Part shown: positions 11,126 through 37,800 of the stretch, piece after piece | Layout: every line of letters begins with the position of its first letter | How positions within the stretch are numbered: position 1 is the first letter of the stretch | Assembly (NCBI RefSeq): GCF_013377755.1 | Contig: NZ_JABXWR010000001.1 | Span: 1,623,104-1,687,103 of the forward strand | Direction: 5' to 3' | Length of the DNA: 64,000 nt | DNA from: Methanofollis tationis | Lineage (GTDB): Archaea > Halobacteriota > Methanomicrobia > Methanomicrobiales > Methanofollaceae | Position numbers and translations under genes: made by a program | Notes under the pieces: generated by a model | Told to the model about the DNA's origin: nothing | The model's database searches: none | What the model saw: the letters and a program-made list of their open reading frames with translations, nothing else

Positions 11126-12004
11126 TTATCCCTCGACGATTTTGACCAGGTTCTCCATAACGGCGTCGATCGCCTTCCAGGCCGGGGAATTTGCATGCAG
11201 GTTGATGAACGGTCTTCCCTCGTCGCCGGCCTCCCTCATGGTGGGGTCAATCGGGATCGCCCCGAGGTATGGGACGCCGAGTTCCTCGGCCGCCTTCTTG
11301 CCGCCACCCTTGCCGAAAATATCGATCTCTTTCCCGCAGTCCGGGCAGATGAAGCCGCTCATGTTCTCGATGACGCCGATGACCGGGATATCGAGTTTCT
11401 CGATGAATTTCGCCGCTTTTTTCGAGTCCATCGTCGAGACTTCCTGCGGCGTGGTGACGATCACCGCCCCCTTGATGTTGGGTGCGAGCTGCACGATGGT
11501 GAGGGCCTCGTCGCCGGTTCCGGGTGGGAGGTCGACGACCAGATAATCGAGTGAGCCCCAGTTCACGTCCTCAAGGAACTGCTTGATCGCAGACATCTTC
11601 ATCGGCCCGCGCCAGATCACCGGGGTGTCGGCGTCCGGGAGGAGGAATTCCATCGAGACGACTGAGAGGTTGCCGGTGATATGGATGGGCTCGATCTTGT
11701 TCCCCATCACCATCAGTTTCTGCCCCTCGGCGCCGACCATCTTCGGAATGTTCGGGCCGTGGATGTCGAGGTCAAGGATGCCGACGTTCTTGCCGTGGTT
11801 AGCGAGGGCGGAGGCGAGGTTCACCGAGACAGTCGTCTTGCCGACGCCGCCCTTGCCTGAGAGGACCAGAATCACGTGCTTGACGTCGATCTTCACCTTC
11901 GGTGGAAGTCCCTTCTGCGGCGAGTCGCATCCTTCTTTCTGGGCGCTCGGGCAGGTTGAGCAGTTGCCGTCGCATTTTTCCTGTGCGTCTGTGGATTGTG
12001 CCAT
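11126..12004 (-). CDS. Mrp/Nbp35-family iron-sulfur carrier ATPase
   Basis: This 292-residue P-loop ATPase assembles or transfers 4Fe-4S clusters to apoproteins. The N-terminus has an Nbp35-like cysteine segment (CDGNCSTCPSAQKEGC). The deviant Walker A reads SGKGGVGKTT, the Walker B region is VVDLPPGTGDEAL, and the C-terminal cluster-bridging CXXC is ICPDCGKEI. A good ribosome-binding site (CAGGAG) precedes the start and a TATA-like ACTTATAGA lies about 45 bp upstream. The next gene (10808) follows without a gap. Confidence 0.95.
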   Translation of the reverse strand: MAQSTDAQEKCDGNCSTCPSAQKEGCDSPQKGLPPKVKIDVKHVILVLSGKGGVGKTTVSVNLASALANHGKNVGILDLDIHGPNIPKMVGAEGQKLMVMGNKIEPIHITGNLSVVSMEFLLPDADTPVIWRGPMKMSAIKQFLEDVNWGSLDYLVVDLPPGTGDEALTIVQLAPNIKGAVIVTTPQEVSTMDSKKAAKFIEKLDIPVIGVIENMSGFICPDCGKEIDIFGKGGGKKAAEELGVPYLGAIPIDPTMREAGDEGRPFINLHANSPAWKAIDAVMENLVKIVEG

Positions 12005-12099: not shown

Positions 12100-12549
12100 T
12101 CAGGTGCCCGGGTTCCTCTTCATATTCTCCATCCAGCCGACGCTGATGCCCGGGATCGCGTCGACCTCTGAGGAGTACGGTTTGATGTCCAGGAGCGGCG
12201 TGCCGTCGAAGGCGTCAAGCCCCCGCACCCGCAGGGTTCCCCCCTCGACGGCGACGAGGTCGACCACCCCGAAACCGATCGGGTTGGGGCGGTTTGGCGA
12301 TCTCGTCGAGAAGACGCCGCGTTCTGCGGGTTGGCCAGGGGGTATTGCCTTCAGCATCGTCCGGTCGGCCCGGTCGAGCCAGTAGAGGAGGATGAGGTGG
12401 GAGCACCGCTCGACGTCTGCAAGGCCATCGAGGTATTCAGGGAAGACCTCGATCTCGCTCTCTATGTCGGCAAGGCGTCCCTGCCTGGGTGCGTCGCCCT
12501 GACGTTTATACGGGGACCTGATCACCCCGATCTGCACAAGTTCCATCAT
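12100..12549 (-). CDS. TrmO-family tRNA (t6A37) methyltransferase
   Basis: This 149-residue protein belongs to the TsaA/TrmO family (UPF0066 fold), which methylates N6 of threonylcarbamoyl-adenosine 37 in certain tRNAs using S-adenosylmethionine. Visible motifs are IGVIRSPYK at the N-terminus, GVFSTRSPNRPNPIGFGVVDLV in the middle and LDAFDGTPLLDIKPY near the end, all diagnostic. It lies 6 bp after the Cas4-like C-half gene and is the last member of the four-gene operon starting with RNase HI. Confidence 0.92.
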   Translation of the reverse strand: MMELVQIGVIRSPYKRQGDAPRQGRLADIESEIEVFPEYLDGLADVERCSHLILLYWLDRADRTMLKAIPPGQPAERGVFSTRSPNRPNPIGFGVVDLVAVEGGTLRVRGLDAFDGTPLLDIKPYSSEVDAIPGISVGWMENMKRNPGT

Positions 12550-12555
12550 ATCAGT

Positions 12556-13101
12556 TCAGTCTCCTTCAAGGGAAAAAAGACATTCTGAACGGTAGGCGCA
12601 GTTCGCGCATCTGACCGGCGCATTGTGGTTGCGCCTGACTGCCCCGCTTTCGAGGCAGCGGCGCATCTCGTCCACCGTCGAGAGCACCTGCGAGCGGATG
12701 GCGTCGGTGAACTCGATCCGGTGCTGCTGTCCGTCGCCATAGACCAGGATCCCGTACGGGACGCGGGTGCCGTAGCGCTCCTCGACAAGGAGGCAGTAGG
12801 CGCCGAGCTGGAGGATGTGGTTCCAGTAAGGCTTTTTCGCCCGCCCGCTCTTCACCTCGACCGGGATATGGGCCCCGGTCATCTCGTCCCGCAGGACGTA
12901 GTCGGGCTTTCCCGAGATACGGTATTTTTCCGAGAACAACGCATCGCCTGGCTCCCCGAGGTCGGCGTAGAGCAGCTCGCCCTCAGGGATGCCGTACTGA
13001 TCCCGCACCTGCTGTGCGGCGTAGTGCCGCCGGATCGCAAAGACGAGCACGACGGCGGCCATGATCAGGAGAATCAGGACGCCTTGTAAATAGTCGATCA
13101 C
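12556..13101 (-). CDS. Cas4-like PD-(D/E)XK nuclease, C-terminal half with membrane anchor
   Basis: This 181-residue protein starts at a GTG overlapping the previous stop. An N-terminal membrane helix (YLQGVLILLIMAAVVLVFAI) leads to the catalytic core of the Cas4/RecB nuclease fold: GKPDYV with Asp67, PVEVKSG with Glu82 and Lys84, and the QLGAY motif with Gln98 and Tyr102. The C-terminus has CANCAYRSEC, the CX2CX5C that binds an iron-sulfur cluster in Cas4 together with one more N-terminal cysteine. That cysteine and the motif-I histidine are missing here but present in the protein encoded just upstream. The two genes therefore look like halves of one nuclease. No CRISPR array or cas1/cas2 is near. 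Confidence 0.82.
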   Translation of the reverse strand: MIDYLQGVLILLIMAAVVLVFAIRRHYAAQQVRDQYGIPEGELLYADLGEPGDALFSEKYRISGKPDYVLRDEMTGAHIPVEVKSGRAKKPYWNHILQLGAYCLLVEERYGTRVPYGILVYGDGQQHRIEFTDAIRSQVLSTVDEMRRCLESGAVRRNHNAPVRCANCAYRSECLFSLEGD

Positions 13102-13358
13102 ATCAGCCCCCAGAGAAGGATGATCAGGGCAAGGGCGAGGAGACCGTAGCCGAGAATCGTCAGCAGCCAGAAGATCTGCCGCTCGCGCTCGACCCTTGTC
13201 AGGGTGCGACCCACCTCGGCATGCTTCAGGTTGCCGCGCTCGATCGATGGAGACATGGTGGACCGACCGTTCCGTTCGAAGTGCCAGGAAGCGGCGCAGT
13301 AGGAGTATTCGGCGATCTCAGACGCCGAGATCACCGGCGTCCCCTCGCCGGCGGCCAT
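13098..13358 (-). CDS. Cas4-like nuclease, N-terminal half with membrane anchor
   Basis: This 86-residue protein contains what is normally the first lobe of Cas4: ISASEIAEYSYCAASWHFERNG with the first cluster cysteine (Cys21), then ERGNLKHAEVG with the motif-I histidine (His46). It ends in a membrane helix (residues about 62-84) and stops. The next gene begins within its stop codon (GTGA overlap) with another membrane helix followed by the remaining nuclease motifs. On the membrane the two helices could form a hairpin that brings both lobes together in the cytoplasm. A single-base frameshift in an originally fused gene is an alternative explanation. Confidence 0.78.
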   Translation of the reverse strand: MAAGEGTPVISASEIAEYSYCAASWHFERNGRSTMSPSIERGNLKHAEVGRTLTRVERERQIFWLLTILGYGLLALALIILLWGLM

Positions 13359-13780
13359 CAGCGGCCCCTCCGGGCGTCGAGTTCCCGGTTGCAGAGTTCG
13401 TCGGCGCGCCCGATCCAGGGGTCGGTCCGGCGGACCGACACAAAGGTCACCGACGTGAACTGCCCGGCGATACGGAGCACCTCGTCCTTCAGTTCGCGCA
13501 GGTGCTCCTTGTTCACGCGGTAGGCCCCGGTGATCTGGCGGACGACGAGTTCGCTGTCCGAGTACACCCGCACCGGCCCGTCCGTCTGCCGGGACGCCTC
13601 GGTCAGGGCGGCAATGATCGCCCGGTACTCCGCCGTGTTGTTCGTGGCGATCCCCAGATACTCTGAACGTTCGAGAACCGCTCGCCCGCCCTTTACAAAG
13701 AGAAAGGCATAGGCGGCATGGCCGGGATTGCCGCGGGACGCCCCGTCGGTGTAGATCTCAAGATCCTGGGTCTCCGGCAT
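13358..13780 (-). CDS. rnhA: Ribonuclease HI
   Basis: This 140-residue RNase H cleaves RNA in RNA-DNA hybrids. The four acidic active-site positions are visible: IYTDGASRGNPG (Asp), NNTAEYRAII (Glu), VYSDSELVV (Asp) and GRADELCN (Asp). The size is that of a stand-alone RNase HI without an extra hybrid-binding domain. Its stop overlaps the start of the Cas4-like N-half gene in a TGATG junction, so it heads a tightly coupled operon with the split nuclease and TrmO. Confidence 0.95.
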   Translation of the reverse strand: MPETQDLEIYTDGASRGNPGHAAYAFLFVKGGRAVLERSEYLGIATNNTAEYRAIIAALTEASRQTDGPVRVYSDSELVVRQITGAYRVNKEHLRELKDEVLRIAGQFTSVTFVSVRRTDPWIGRADELCNRELDARRGR

Positions 13781-13868
13781 GATGATTCCTGTACATTACA
13801 GGAAGGCAGGGCAGATATGCGTTGGGTTAACCATACCTCTATATGTCGGGAAGGCTGAACCGGGGCAT

Positions 13869-14119
13869 ATGGACACGGAGCGGCGGATTCAAAAGATCGG
13901 TGTCAGACTCGACTTCATCGAGTTCCCCACGCGGCACACCTGCGACGGCGAGAACCTTTCGCCCCGCCTGATCATCGAGGATCTCAGGGCACCCTGCGTC
14001 GCCCTGATCGTGCACAACCCCTATGAGGAGGGGTGCTCGTTCTCCCCATGGCTCGCGTGGAATATCGACCCTCTCAGGCATTCGGACGGCCGCGCCCTGA
14101 TCCCCGAGGGCGTCCCACC
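13869..14119 (+). pseudogene. YbhB/YbcL-family (PEBP) protein, 5' part (interrupted by IS)
   Basis: This is the first half of a phosphatidylethanolamine-binding-protein-like gene. From ATG 13869 it reads MDTERRIQKIGVRLDFIEF, then THTCDGENLSPRL-like family sequence (here RHTCDGENLSPRL) and SPWLAWNIDP, up to EGVP at the insertion point. The rest continues after the IS at 15377. Joining the parts after removing one copy of TCCCACC gives an unbroken protein of about 165 residues. Confidence 0.85.
14113..14119. repeat. Target-site duplication, left of IS copy 2
   Basis: TCCCACC recurs at 15377-15383 on the far side of the element. Only 7 bp match, one or two fewer than at copy 1. Confidence 0.75.
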
Positions 14120-15375
14120 GGTAGTGTTTCAGATCTTCTGTAATTCGTCTGAGCCCTGTCTCCTTGTTTGATCATTCCCCCTCCATCGTCAAATATCTTC
14201 TGCCGGTCACCCACTCCTCATTGATGTCCATCAGGATGGATCCTGCCAGCCTGAGGAGTGACTCTTCATTGGGAAAGGCCCCTACAACTTTGGTTCTCCG
14301 TTTCAGTTCCTTGTTGACTCTTTCCATCATGTTCGTCGTTCGGATCCGCTTTGCGTGCTCTTTCGGGAACGCCGTGTAACTCATAAGTCCCGGGATGAAT
14401 CTCTCGATCGTATTGGCCGCTTTCCGATATCCTCGTTCGTTCAGATCATCTGCAAGCTGCTGAAGTCTTTCCTCGTCCCCATATGCCTCCTTCAAGGACT
14501 CAGCAACTTCTTTCTGATGTTTCCGTGGAATATTCTTTAAAACCGCCCGGGTGCAATGGACCGAGCACATCTGCCACGATGCGCCGAGGAAGGCGGCTTC
14601 CGCCGCCTTCTGGATCCCGGCATGACCATCTGAGACAACCATCTTGACACCCACCAATCCTCGTTCTTTGAGGTCTTCGAACAATCCCGACCAGAACATC
14701 TCATTTTCACAATCAGTGATTCTGGCTCCCAGGATTTCGCGGTAGCCATCCATTCGAACACCGGCGATCACCAGAAGAGCTTTGGTGATGTAGCGTGGTC
14801 CCTCTCTGACTTTGTAGTACGAAGCATCCACAAAGAGATAGGGAATCTCCTGTTCAATCGGCCTCTGAAGGAATGCATGGACCTGTTCATCGAGGTCCTT
14901 TGCTATCCTGGATACTGAAGCAGGAGAGAGTTGTTCGATGCCAAAATGAGCAACAATCTCCTGGATCCGGCGGGTTGAGACTCCCTGAAGGTAGGATTCA
15001 AAGATAGCATTCTCAAGAGCCTTCTCAACCCGGGAATAGCGTCCAAATACCTGTGTTTCGAAGGGAAATTCTCGGAACTGCGGTTTCTGGAGGATCGTTT
15101 CTCCATATCGGGTTTTCAGAGATCGCTTCTTGTAGCCGTTTCGGTGAGCCTTCCGCGCATCGGTTCGTTCATACTGCTCGGCTCCCGCCTGGTGGAGGGC
15201 TTCGAGCAGCATCACCTGGTTGAGGAACCAGGTGATGAGGGTCTTCATGCCATTCTCATTATCGGAAAGATAATCTTCGATTAACGCTAAGGGATCCATG
15301 GCCCTGTTTCTCCTTTCTGCAAATCTAGGTTGGATTCAGGGCCAAATTATTTTTACAGAAGATTCGTTACACTGT
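14120..15375 (-). mobile_element. IS256-family insertion sequence, copy 2 (inverted relative to copy 1)
   Basis: This element has the same length and terminal sequences as copy 1 but lies in the opposite orientation. It differs at a handful of bases, for example near the transposase start and around the codons for FREFPFET. It splits a PEBP-family gene. The 5.3 kb between the two copies is unique sequence. Confidence 0.92.
14172..15299 (-). CDS. IS256-family (Mutator-like) transposase, copy 2
   Basis: This 375-residue transposase has the same amino-acid sequence as the copy at 7625-8752, with an intact DDE core (FVDASY, VVSDGHAG, MMERVNKEL). The few base differences between copies are silent. 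Identity between the copies implies recent transposition within this lineage. Confidence 0.95.
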   Translation of the reverse strand: MDPLALIEDYLSDNENGMKTLITWFLNQVMLLEALHQAGAEQYERTDARKAHRNGYKKRSLKTRYGETILQKPQFREFPFETQVFGRYSRVEKALENAIFESYLQGVSTRRIQEIVAHFGIEQLSPASVSRIAKDLDEQVHAFLQRPIEQEIPYLFVDASYYKVREGPRYITKALLVIAGVRMDGYREILGARITDCENEMFWSGLFEDLKERGLVGVKMVVSDGHAGIQKAAEAAFLGASWQMCSVHCTRAVLKNIPRKHQKEVAESLKEAYGDEERLQQLADDLNERGYRKAANTIERFIPGLMSYTAFPKEHAKRIRTTNMMERVNKELKRRTKVVGAFPNEESLLRLAGSILMDINEEWVTGRRYLTMEGE

Positions 15376-15376
15376 C

Positions 15377-15621
15377 TCCCACCCGAGTCCGAGACCGACG
15401 CCCCGGTCAGGATGGTACAGGGGACGAACGGCTACGGGAGCATCGGTTACCGTGGACCCTGCCCGCCGCCGGGCGAGACGCACCGCTACTATTTCAGAAT
15501 TTACGCCCTGGACTCTTTCCTGGCGCTCCCGCCGGGCTCGGGGCAGCACGATCTTGTGGCGGCGATGCAGGGGCATGCCACGGCATATGGCGAGACCTTC
15601 GCGATGTACAGGCGGCCGTAA
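15377..15621 (+). pseudogene. YbhB/YbcL-family (PEBP) protein, 3' part (interrupted by IS)
   Basis: This is the second half of the gene begun at 13869. It reads GTNGYGSIGYRGPCPPPG, HRYYFRIYALDSFLALPPG and HATAYGETFAMYRRP to the stop at 15621. GYRGPCPPPG...HRY is the ligand-pocket signature of this family. The half has no start of its own. Confidence 0.85.
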
Positions 15622-34857: not shown

Positions 34858-37800
34858 GTGAAGGAAGTCACCAGCAGTTATGATGCACAGGCGATCGAGG
34901 GGCGCGTCCAGGAGTTCTGGCGGGCCGCCGACACCTATGCTCAGGTAAAAGATCTGCGGCGTTCAGGCAAGCAGTTCTTCTTTGTAGATGGCCCCCCGTA
35001 CACCACCGGCCACATCCACCTGGGAACAGCGTGGAACAAGATCATCAAGGACGCCGTTCTCCGCCGGCACCGGATGTGCGGGAAGAACGTCATCGAGCGG
35101 GCCGGCTATGATATGCACGGGTTGCCGATCGAGGTTCAGGTCGAGCACCAGCTTGGCTTCACCTCGAAAAAGGATATCGAGGCCTACGGTATCGACCGGT
35201 TCATCGAGCGCTGCCGGGAATTTGCCCTTACCAACATGGCGGTGATGTCTGATCAGTTCAGAGCCCTTGGTATCTGGCTCGACTTCGACAACCCCTACCA
35301 GACCGTTAAAAAGGAGTATATTGAGGCGGCGTGGTGGACGCTTGCGCAGGCCGAGAAGAACAGGATGCTCGAACGGGGCCACCGCGTGGTGAACTGGTGC
35401 CCGAGGTGCGAAACCGCCATTGCCGACTCTGAAGTGGAGTACGACGACGCCACCGACCCCTCCATCTATGTGAAGTTCCCGGTGAAAGGCACCGATGACG
35501 AGTACCTGGTGATCTGGACCACGACGCCATGGACGCTCCCGGCAAACGTCGCTGTGGCCGCCCACCCCGGGATCGTCTACGCCCTGGTCGCCGCCCGGAA
35601 AGAGGGCGTCGAGGAGAAACTCTGGATCGCCGAGGCGCTCGTCGAGGAGGTGCTCAGGAAAGGGCGGTACCAGCACTTTGATGTTCTCAAAACCGTCACC
35701 GGCGCCGACCTCGCCGGGATGGAGTACGAGTCCCCGCTCGCCGCTTCAGTGCCGGCGCAGAAGGAGATCGCCCACCGCGTCGTCCTCGCCGATTACGTGG
35801 CCCTCGAAAATACCGGGCTCGTGCACACCGCACCGGGCCATGGCTGGGACGACTACCTCACCGGGATCAAATACGATCTTCCCGTACTCTGCCCGGTCGA
35901 CGGCACCGGCCGGTTCACAAAAAGGGCCGGGGTGTTTGACGGGCTTTACGTCAAAGACCCGGCGACGAACCGGCAGGTCATGGACGCCCTTGGCCCCTGC
36001 CTCCTCCACGAGGGGAAGACCACCCACCGTTACGGCCACTGCTGGCGGTGCAAGACCCCGATCATCTTCCGGGCCACCGAGCAGTGGTTCATCAAGGCCT
36101 CGGAGATGCGGGACAAACTTCTCGACGAGGTCGGGAAGGTCACCTGGTACCCGGACTGGGCGGGCAGCGCCCGGTTCTACGACTGGGTGAAGGAGGCCCG
36201 CGACTGGTGCATCTCGCGCCAGCGCTACTGGGGCATCCCGATCCCGGTCTGGCAGTGCGACACCTGCGATGCACGGCGGGTGATCGCGACCGTCGCCGAA
36301 CTCGAAGAGGCGAGCGGGCAGGCGGTCGCCGATCCGCACCGCCCGTACGTCGATGCGGTCACCATCCCCTGCACCTGCGGCGGGACGATGCGCCGGGTCT
36401 CCGACATCTTCGACGTCTGGTTCGACTCGGCCGTGGCCTCGTGGGCGACCCTCGGCTACCCCGGCGAAAAAGAGGCGTTCGAGAAATACTGGCCCGCAGA
36501 CTTCATCACCGAGGGGCAGGACCAGACCCGCGGCTGGTTCTACTCGCAGCTCGGCGCCTCGACGGTTGCCTTCGGCAGGGCTCCCTATAAATCGGTGCTG
36601 ATGCACGGCTTCGCCCTTGACGCAGAGGGGCGGAAGATGTCCAAGAGCCTGGGCAACGTCGTGGCCCCGGAGGAAGTGATAAAGACCTTCGGCGTGGACG
36701 TCCTCCGCCTCTACGTTCTTTCCGCAAACGCACCCTGGGACGATATGAAGTTCAACTGGGAAGGCGTGAAGACGGTCAACCGGGCCCTCAACATCCTCTG
36801 GAACGTCTACCGTTTCCCCCTGCCCTATATGGTCCTGGACAACTTCGCACCCGCACAGACCGCAGGCGGACTCTGGGATGAGACGGCTGTTCTGCGGATG
36901 CTTGATCAGATGCCGGACGAGGACCGCTGGATCCTCTCGCGGGTCAACAGCCTTGTCGCCAGTGTGGAGGCCGACTTCGCCGGGTTGAACCTCCACCGGG
37001 TCACCCGTTCGCTCATCACCTTCGTGCTCGAAGACCTCTCGCGGTGGTACCTCCAGATCGTCAGGCCCAGAATGTGGCTCGAAGAGGACGCCCCGGAGAA
37101 GCGCTACGCCTACGAGACGGTGTATTACGTCCTCCGCAGGCTCGTCTGCCTCCTTGCTCCTTTCACCCCGCACCTCACCGAGGAGATCTACGGGAACCTG
37201 CGGTGCGAGGGCGATCCGGCGAGCGTCCATATGCTCGACTGGCCCGCGGCCGACAGCGCCCTCATCGACGCGCCCCTTGAAACTGCGATGGGTGTCGTCC
37301 AGTCCTTTGACGATGCCGTGGCCACGGCCCGGCAGGACGGAAAGCGGAAACTTCGCTGGCCGGTCGGCGAGGTCGTGGTCGTGACCGACGCCCCGGCGGT
37401 GCGGGACGCTGTCGCCAGGCTTTCGGGACTCTGCGCCTCCCGCGCCAACGCGAAAGTGGTCACCGTCGTCACCGGGTGGTGGGATCGGATCGGCTGGAAG
37501 GCCGAGGCCGTGATGCGGGTGCTGGGCCCGAAATTTGGAAAAGAGGCCCCGAAGGTGAAAGGGGCGATCGAGGGGGCAGACGGCAACGCCCTGAAGGCCG
37601 CACTCGAAGCCGACGGTAAGGCGAGCGTCGGGGATTTTGAGGTGACGCCTGAGATGGTGACGTTCATCGAAGAGGTCCCTGAAGGCGTGTTTGCCGCCGC
37701 GATGCCCGACGCCACCGTCTATGTCGATGTCACCCTTACGCCGGAGATCGAGGCCGAGGGGTATGCCCGCGAGGTGGTCCGCCGTCTTCAGGAGATGCGC

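Follow-up and report, generated by a model that had tools for sequence, protein, structure and literature searches.

Two overlapping genes of Methanofollis tationis appear to encode the two ends of a single Cas4-type nuclease, each end carrying a membrane helix at the point where the chain is divided. The best overall explanation, to which we give a probability of about 0.7, is a two-chain, membrane-bound Cas4-type nuclease that acts independently of CRISPR at the cell envelope; taken by itself, the proposal that the two proteins are halves that assemble into one enzyme is, judging from their sequences, very probable. Archaea often encode Cas4 proteins away from CRISPR loci, and what these proteins do is an open question. 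The two genes, referred to here as the N-half and the C-half, lie in the stretch of 64,000 nucleotides that was analysed (the window), in a tightly packed row with rnhA and trmO (Table 1). The stop codon of rnhA and the start codon of the N-half have one base in common (TGATG), and 6 nt separate the C-half stop from the trmO start. Elsewhere in the window, a Mutator-family insertion sequence (14123-15373; transposase at 14172-15299) with 21-nt imperfect terminal inverted repeats breaks a gene for a phosphatidylethanolamine-binding protein (YbhB-like), the halves of which are at approximately 13860-14165 and 15388-15618.

Table 1. Features of the split Cas4 locus and adjoining genes, in window coordinates.
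Feature	Position	Strand	Evidence and remarks
rnhA, RNase HI, 140 aa	13358..13780	-	PF00075 4e-14; neighbour, probably outside the system
N-half of putative Cas4-type nuclease, 86 aa	13098..13358	-	C21, W25, G42, H46, C-terminal membrane helix
Membrane helix 1, N-half residues ~65-83	13110..13166	-	Hydropathy 2.5 over 19 residues
GTGA overlap, C-half start codon and N-half stop codon	13098..13101	-	
C-half of putative Cas4-type nuclease, 181 aa	12556..13101	-	TIGR00372 81.8 bits, PF01930 4e-13
Membrane helix 2, C-half residues ~5-23	13033..13089	-	Hydropathy 2.9
trmO, tRNA m6t6A methyltransferase	12100..12549	-	TIGR00104 169 bits; neighbour, probably outside the system
Mrp/ApbC-type Fe-S carrier ATPase	11126..12004	-	PF10609 1e-102; next in the ancestral rnhA-trmO-mrp row

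Motifs, membrane helices and predicted fold

The PD-(D/E)XK active site of the Cas4 family and the four-cysteine pattern of a predicted 4Fe-4S cluster are both present at this locus, but each is divided between the two proteins. The N-half has one iron-sulfur cysteine (C21) and the motif-I histidine (H46), and the C-half, after its N-terminal membrane helix, has D67, E82-x-K84, Q98-x3-Y102 and C165-x2-C168-x5-C174. The Cas4 profile TIGR00372 is divided in the same manner, with positions 1-61 matching the N-half weakly (15 bits) and positions 63-179 matching the C-half with 81.8 bits against a cut-off of 65; the Pfam Cas_Cas4 score of the C-half is 50.1 against a cut-off of 22.7, and the N-half by itself scores under every family cut-off. 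Because the halves cover complementary pieces of the profile, they appear to be the two ends of one Cas4, and the original prediction of a split Cas4-like nuclease with a membrane helix on both proteins is borne out as regards both the placement of the motifs and the profile matches. Across 17 aligned split pairs A12, E14, C21, W25, G42 and H46 are kept in the N-half, and D67, E82, K84, Q98, Y102 and the three cysteines are invariant in the C-half; the four cysteines and the active-site residues are still invariant when the halves encoded by Planctomycetota plasmids join the alignment.

On the break side, about 20 residues of the N-half and about 56 residues of the C-half have no Cas4 counterpart. 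Each of these extra parts includes a strong membrane helix, one per half and right at the break, and by this comparison of sequences the membrane hairpin is an insertion into Cas4. Lysine and arginine residues flanking the helices in the 17 split pairs are distributed unequally, 57 and 65 on the side of the nuclease but 3 and 1 next to the loop, a bias that by the positive-inside rule would place both catalytic parts in the cytoplasm and direct the cut loop outward. A natural fused homologue (L011) was modelled with AlphaFold (pLDDT 91.4, pTM 0.87) from an alignment of fused and split relatives, the single chain standing in for the two-chain complex. In the model a hairpin of two long helices, residues 41-90 and 96-130, extends from the nuclease across the membrane, and the motif-I histidine (H50) is on the first helix. 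Among PDB entries, Foldseek ranks highest the Cas4 of a type I-C adaptation complex, Dna2 and an Argonaute-associated Cas4, with E values of about 1e-6, and the predicted structure of the fused homologue is that of a Cas4 on a helical membrane stalk.

These features suggest how the enzyme might be put together. After completing the N-half, the ribosome would begin again at the start codon within the overlap, the helix of one half would pair with that of the other in the membrane as a hairpin with a cut loop, and the cytoplasmic parts would then close into a single nuclease with its 4Fe-4S cluster near the inner membrane face. To this nuclease the N-half would give one iron-sulfur cysteine and the catalytic histidine, and the C-half the Asp, Glu, Lys, Gln and Tyr residues and three cysteines.

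Distribution, descent and possible roles

Profile searches identify separate N-half and C-half genes in 33 genomes belonging to five families of the phylum: eight Methanofollis genomes, 21 of the family f21, one each of f25 and f16, and two of f9, with one of the two f9 pairs on a truncated contig. A single-chain form is seen in five genomes, four of them Methanofollis and the fifth (G353) from family f27, and these natural fusions all join the halves in the same order and retain both membrane helices. When the profile is built from the fused form, the search turns up no additional membrane-type copy in the class to which Methanofollis belongs, but other classes of the phylum contain clear copies; the distribution is patchy, with a minority of genomes in each class searched carrying a split or membrane-type Cas4. 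A contig scan with one window protein gave matches in Methanofollis only. The membrane Cas4 copy in G367 (L127) has decayed: it contains several stop codons and has a helicase fragment alongside. A viral origin was considered and rejected, as two scans of viral contigs revealed no relative of the pair and a phage collection yielded a single, weak match.

Outside the phylum of Methanofollis the pair is known from plasmids only. In Paludisphaera borealis (Planctomycetota), one plasmid encodes a 91-residue protein with the cysteine, glycine, histidine and terminal helix of the N-half, followed with an ATGA overlap by a 169-residue protein, annotated as a PD-(D/E)XK nuclease, that has an N-terminal helix and all of the C-half motifs. 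The same pair with a 4-nt overlap is present on plasmid pSINAC03 of Singulisphaera acidiphila. An MmeI-like restriction-modification enzyme adjoins the Paludisphaera pair and an annotated N-6 DNA methylase the pSINAC03 pair, so that the restriction-modification context comes from two related plasmids. We also note a third plasmid, pPL62-2 of Planctomyces sp. SH-PL62 (L172), which has a C-half disrupted into two frames, no annotated N-half and, immediately upstream, a gene for an IS701 transposase.

In a tree of the nuclease core, calculated with the membrane columns removed and with 54 ordinary Cas4 proteins from the Methanofollis phylum for comparison, all membrane-type copies, both archaeal and plasmid-borne, fall on one side of a branch with support of 98/91; none of the 54 ordinary proteins has a membrane helix. 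The fused state requires two changes on a tree of the joined halves, in which some branches are weak and the two fused groups are well separated, so that by this tree the split form is ancestral within the clade and fusion occurred twice. Purifying selection acts on both halves: dN/dS across 11 close pairs is 0.10-0.36 in the N-half and 0.06-0.19 in the C-half. Within Methanofollis and most of f21, the tree of joined halves also indicates that the pair was inherited vertically.

Cas4 proteins studied to date cut single-stranded or branched DNA (PMC12538437), and by analogy the membrane-tethered nuclease would degrade or trim such substrates. The C-half gene of one archaeal genome (G348) directly abuts a downstream gene for a superfamily-2 helicase that has a Hef-like helical insert (PF21210; L115:3097-5169). 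The membrane tether, the restriction-modification neighbours on the plasmids and a helicase in some archaea together fit DNA processing near the envelope. Defence or repair has been suggested as the role of solo-Cas4 proteins (PMC5704561), and the most likely role of the pair would be to destroy or trim DNA at the envelope, either to defend the cell from plasmid or virus DNA coming in or to clear DNA ends. That it serves in defence or on incoming DNA is a tentative suggestion, with the odds somewhat against it. It is somewhat unlikely that the pair is instead a housekeeping repair nuclease parked at the membrane, trimming ends in the manner of Dna2 or Cas4; the structural matches to the Dna2 nuclease, the vertical inheritance and the helicase in G348 are consistent with such a function, but its presence in a minority of genomes of each class is not what it would lead one to expect. 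Distinctly unlikely is a membrane nuclease that takes part in DNA uptake or processes nutrient DNA rather than defending the cell. The catalytic parts are predicted to lie just beneath the membrane, and in one genus of f21 a conserved protein of about 217 residues, predicted to be exported and with no Pfam match (for example L117:5872-6528) adjoins the pair in approximately nine genomes, which would suit uptake; however, this neighbour is not conserved elsewhere and no competence genes were identified near the pair. As the neighbours differ between families, the pathway in which the two-chain nuclease acts is not fixed by its gene context.

The break and the surrounding genes

The two halves are in different reading frames in every split pair, and the C-half start codon lies within an overlap of 4-25 nt in all of them except that of the Methanofollis genome G003, with GTG needed as the start codon in a few f21 genomes. 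The 4-bp overlap described in the original prediction is the GTGA of the window, and among the 12 Methanofollis genomes eight are split, seven of these with a GTGA or ATGA overlap. In the remaining four the product is a single chain of 274-278 residues, its membrane helices joined by a short loop into a hairpin. In G003 both the N-half stop and the C-half start have been lost through a single T-to-C difference from the window, and the next ordinary C-half start is 23 nt past the new N-half stop, inside the membrane-helix region; the C-half of G003 is still under purifying selection despite the loss of its usual start. Programmed ribosomal frameshifting across the overlap, giving one polypeptide, would make sense of the overlapping frames and would yield a sensible fused chain in G003, where the only near start is the one beyond the stop. 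We nevertheless consider it highly improbable. Most lineages have the C-half in frame +2 relative to the N-half, whereas one genus has it in +1, no slippery site is conserved (the lone canonical slippery heptamer is in L146), and the other pairs have C-half start codons in the overlap.

The locus sits between rnhA and trmO in all 12 Methanofollis genomes, and from this arrangement a functional coupling to RNase HI and TrmO, with action on R-loops near the membrane, had been proposed. A membrane nuclease working with RNase HI, and perhaps TrmO, on R-loops or RNA-DNA hybrids would account for the tight packing of rnhA, N-half, C-half and trmO in the genus, but in other families of the order the gene directly after rnhA is trmO or the Mrp gene and no Cas4 intervenes, and no rnhA or trmO was found near the split pairs in the loci examined outside Methanofollis. 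The association is thus confined to one genus, and since rnhA and trmO are adjacent without Cas4 in other genera of the order, the split pair was inserted into an existing row of genes. The association is no evidence of a common function with the split Cas4, nothing specific indicates R-loops, and we regard a partnership with RNase HI as even less probable than frameshifting. The other role put forward in the original prediction, action on nucleic acid that enters or leaves the cell, may still hold.

Error or decay, in which a single-chain membrane Cas4 was broken by a frameshift, can be dismissed as a negligible possibility: although four Methanofollis genomes and G353 encode one chain and the copy in G367 is degenerate, so that close relatives include split and single-chain forms rather than fused chains alone, no base was missed at 13098-13101, the same break with ordered start and stop overlaps occurs in eight Methanofollis genomes, 25 other archaeal genomes and two plasmids, both halves are under purifying selection, and the split is reconstructed as ancestral.

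The statement that there is no CRISPR array, cas1 or cas2 holds for the window but not for the genome. About 0.4 Mb from the locus is an array (L096; C1 2,035,000-2,043,000) in which a CGGTTCATCCCCACGCGAGTGGGGAACTC-type repeat occurs 54 times in the 8 kb that were read, and a Cas1 match adjoins it. The 29-nt repeat is typical of type I-E systems, which are normally without cas4. A solo cas1 encoding 311 aa (L095:9968-10903; C1 ~34,967-35,902) has no cas genes beside it, and matches of similar score are present in most Methanofollis genomes. A search of the same genome for a second Cas4 gene found none. The split Cas4 therefore lies outside CRISPR loci as solo-Cas4 proteins do, and with no cas1 or cas2 beside it in the window it does not show the adjacency of a CAS-Cas4.

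Relation to known Cas4 proteins

On sequence tests the split form qualifies as a member of the Cas4 family, and it would differ from known Cas4 proteins in the number of its chains and in its location. One of its nearest known counterparts is solo-Cas4 (COG1468/PF01930, TIGR00372; reviewed in PMC5704561), with which it shares the PD-(D/E)XK core, the QxxxY motif, the four cysteines and a position outside CRISPR loci, but it consists of two chains, each with a membrane helix at the break, rather than one, and it forms a separate clade (98/91); the words 'split' and 'transmembrane' are absent from the main text of that review. The predicted fold of the fused homologue resembles that of CAS-Cas4 proteins such as the type I-C protein (PDB 8d3l), which, unlike the pair, are neither split nor membrane-anchored and have cas1 and cas2 adjoining. 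ACE1, an Argonaute-associated member of the Cas4 family (PDB 9iab, 9iac), likewise has a Cas4 fold and is a Cas4 outside CRISPR, but it was solved as one chain of about 266 residues, and no Argonaute gene was seen near the split pairs on inspection. The Dna2 nuclease domain (PDB 5eax) is similar in the predicted fold of the nuclease core, whereas the split Cas4 has no fused helicase, has membrane helices and is made of two chains. A literature search, with most subscription journals outside its coverage, turned up no account of a Cas4 that is split or membrane-bound. The split membrane Cas4 is a genuine and conserved form that has apparently gone undescribed so far, and one that annotation pipelines would overlook, the N-half being labelled a 'hypothetical protein' in both Planctomycetota plasmids.

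A broader and rather unlikely proposal is that this is an ancient, dedicated membrane Cas4 of archaea and bacterial plasmids, made of two obligatory subunits, that cuts DNA on entry, a non-CRISPR defence that could be controlled by the pairing of its single-pass subunits. The conserved split through an iron-sulfur nuclease, together with two later re-fusions, would provide a naturally occurring two-chain enzyme that could be regulated through its assembly. The division of the active site and the iron-sulfur site between two co-translated chains would, like the membrane location, be a distinctive and testable property of the clade, and the predicted membrane location gives a direct hypothesis for the role of solo-Cas4 proteins.
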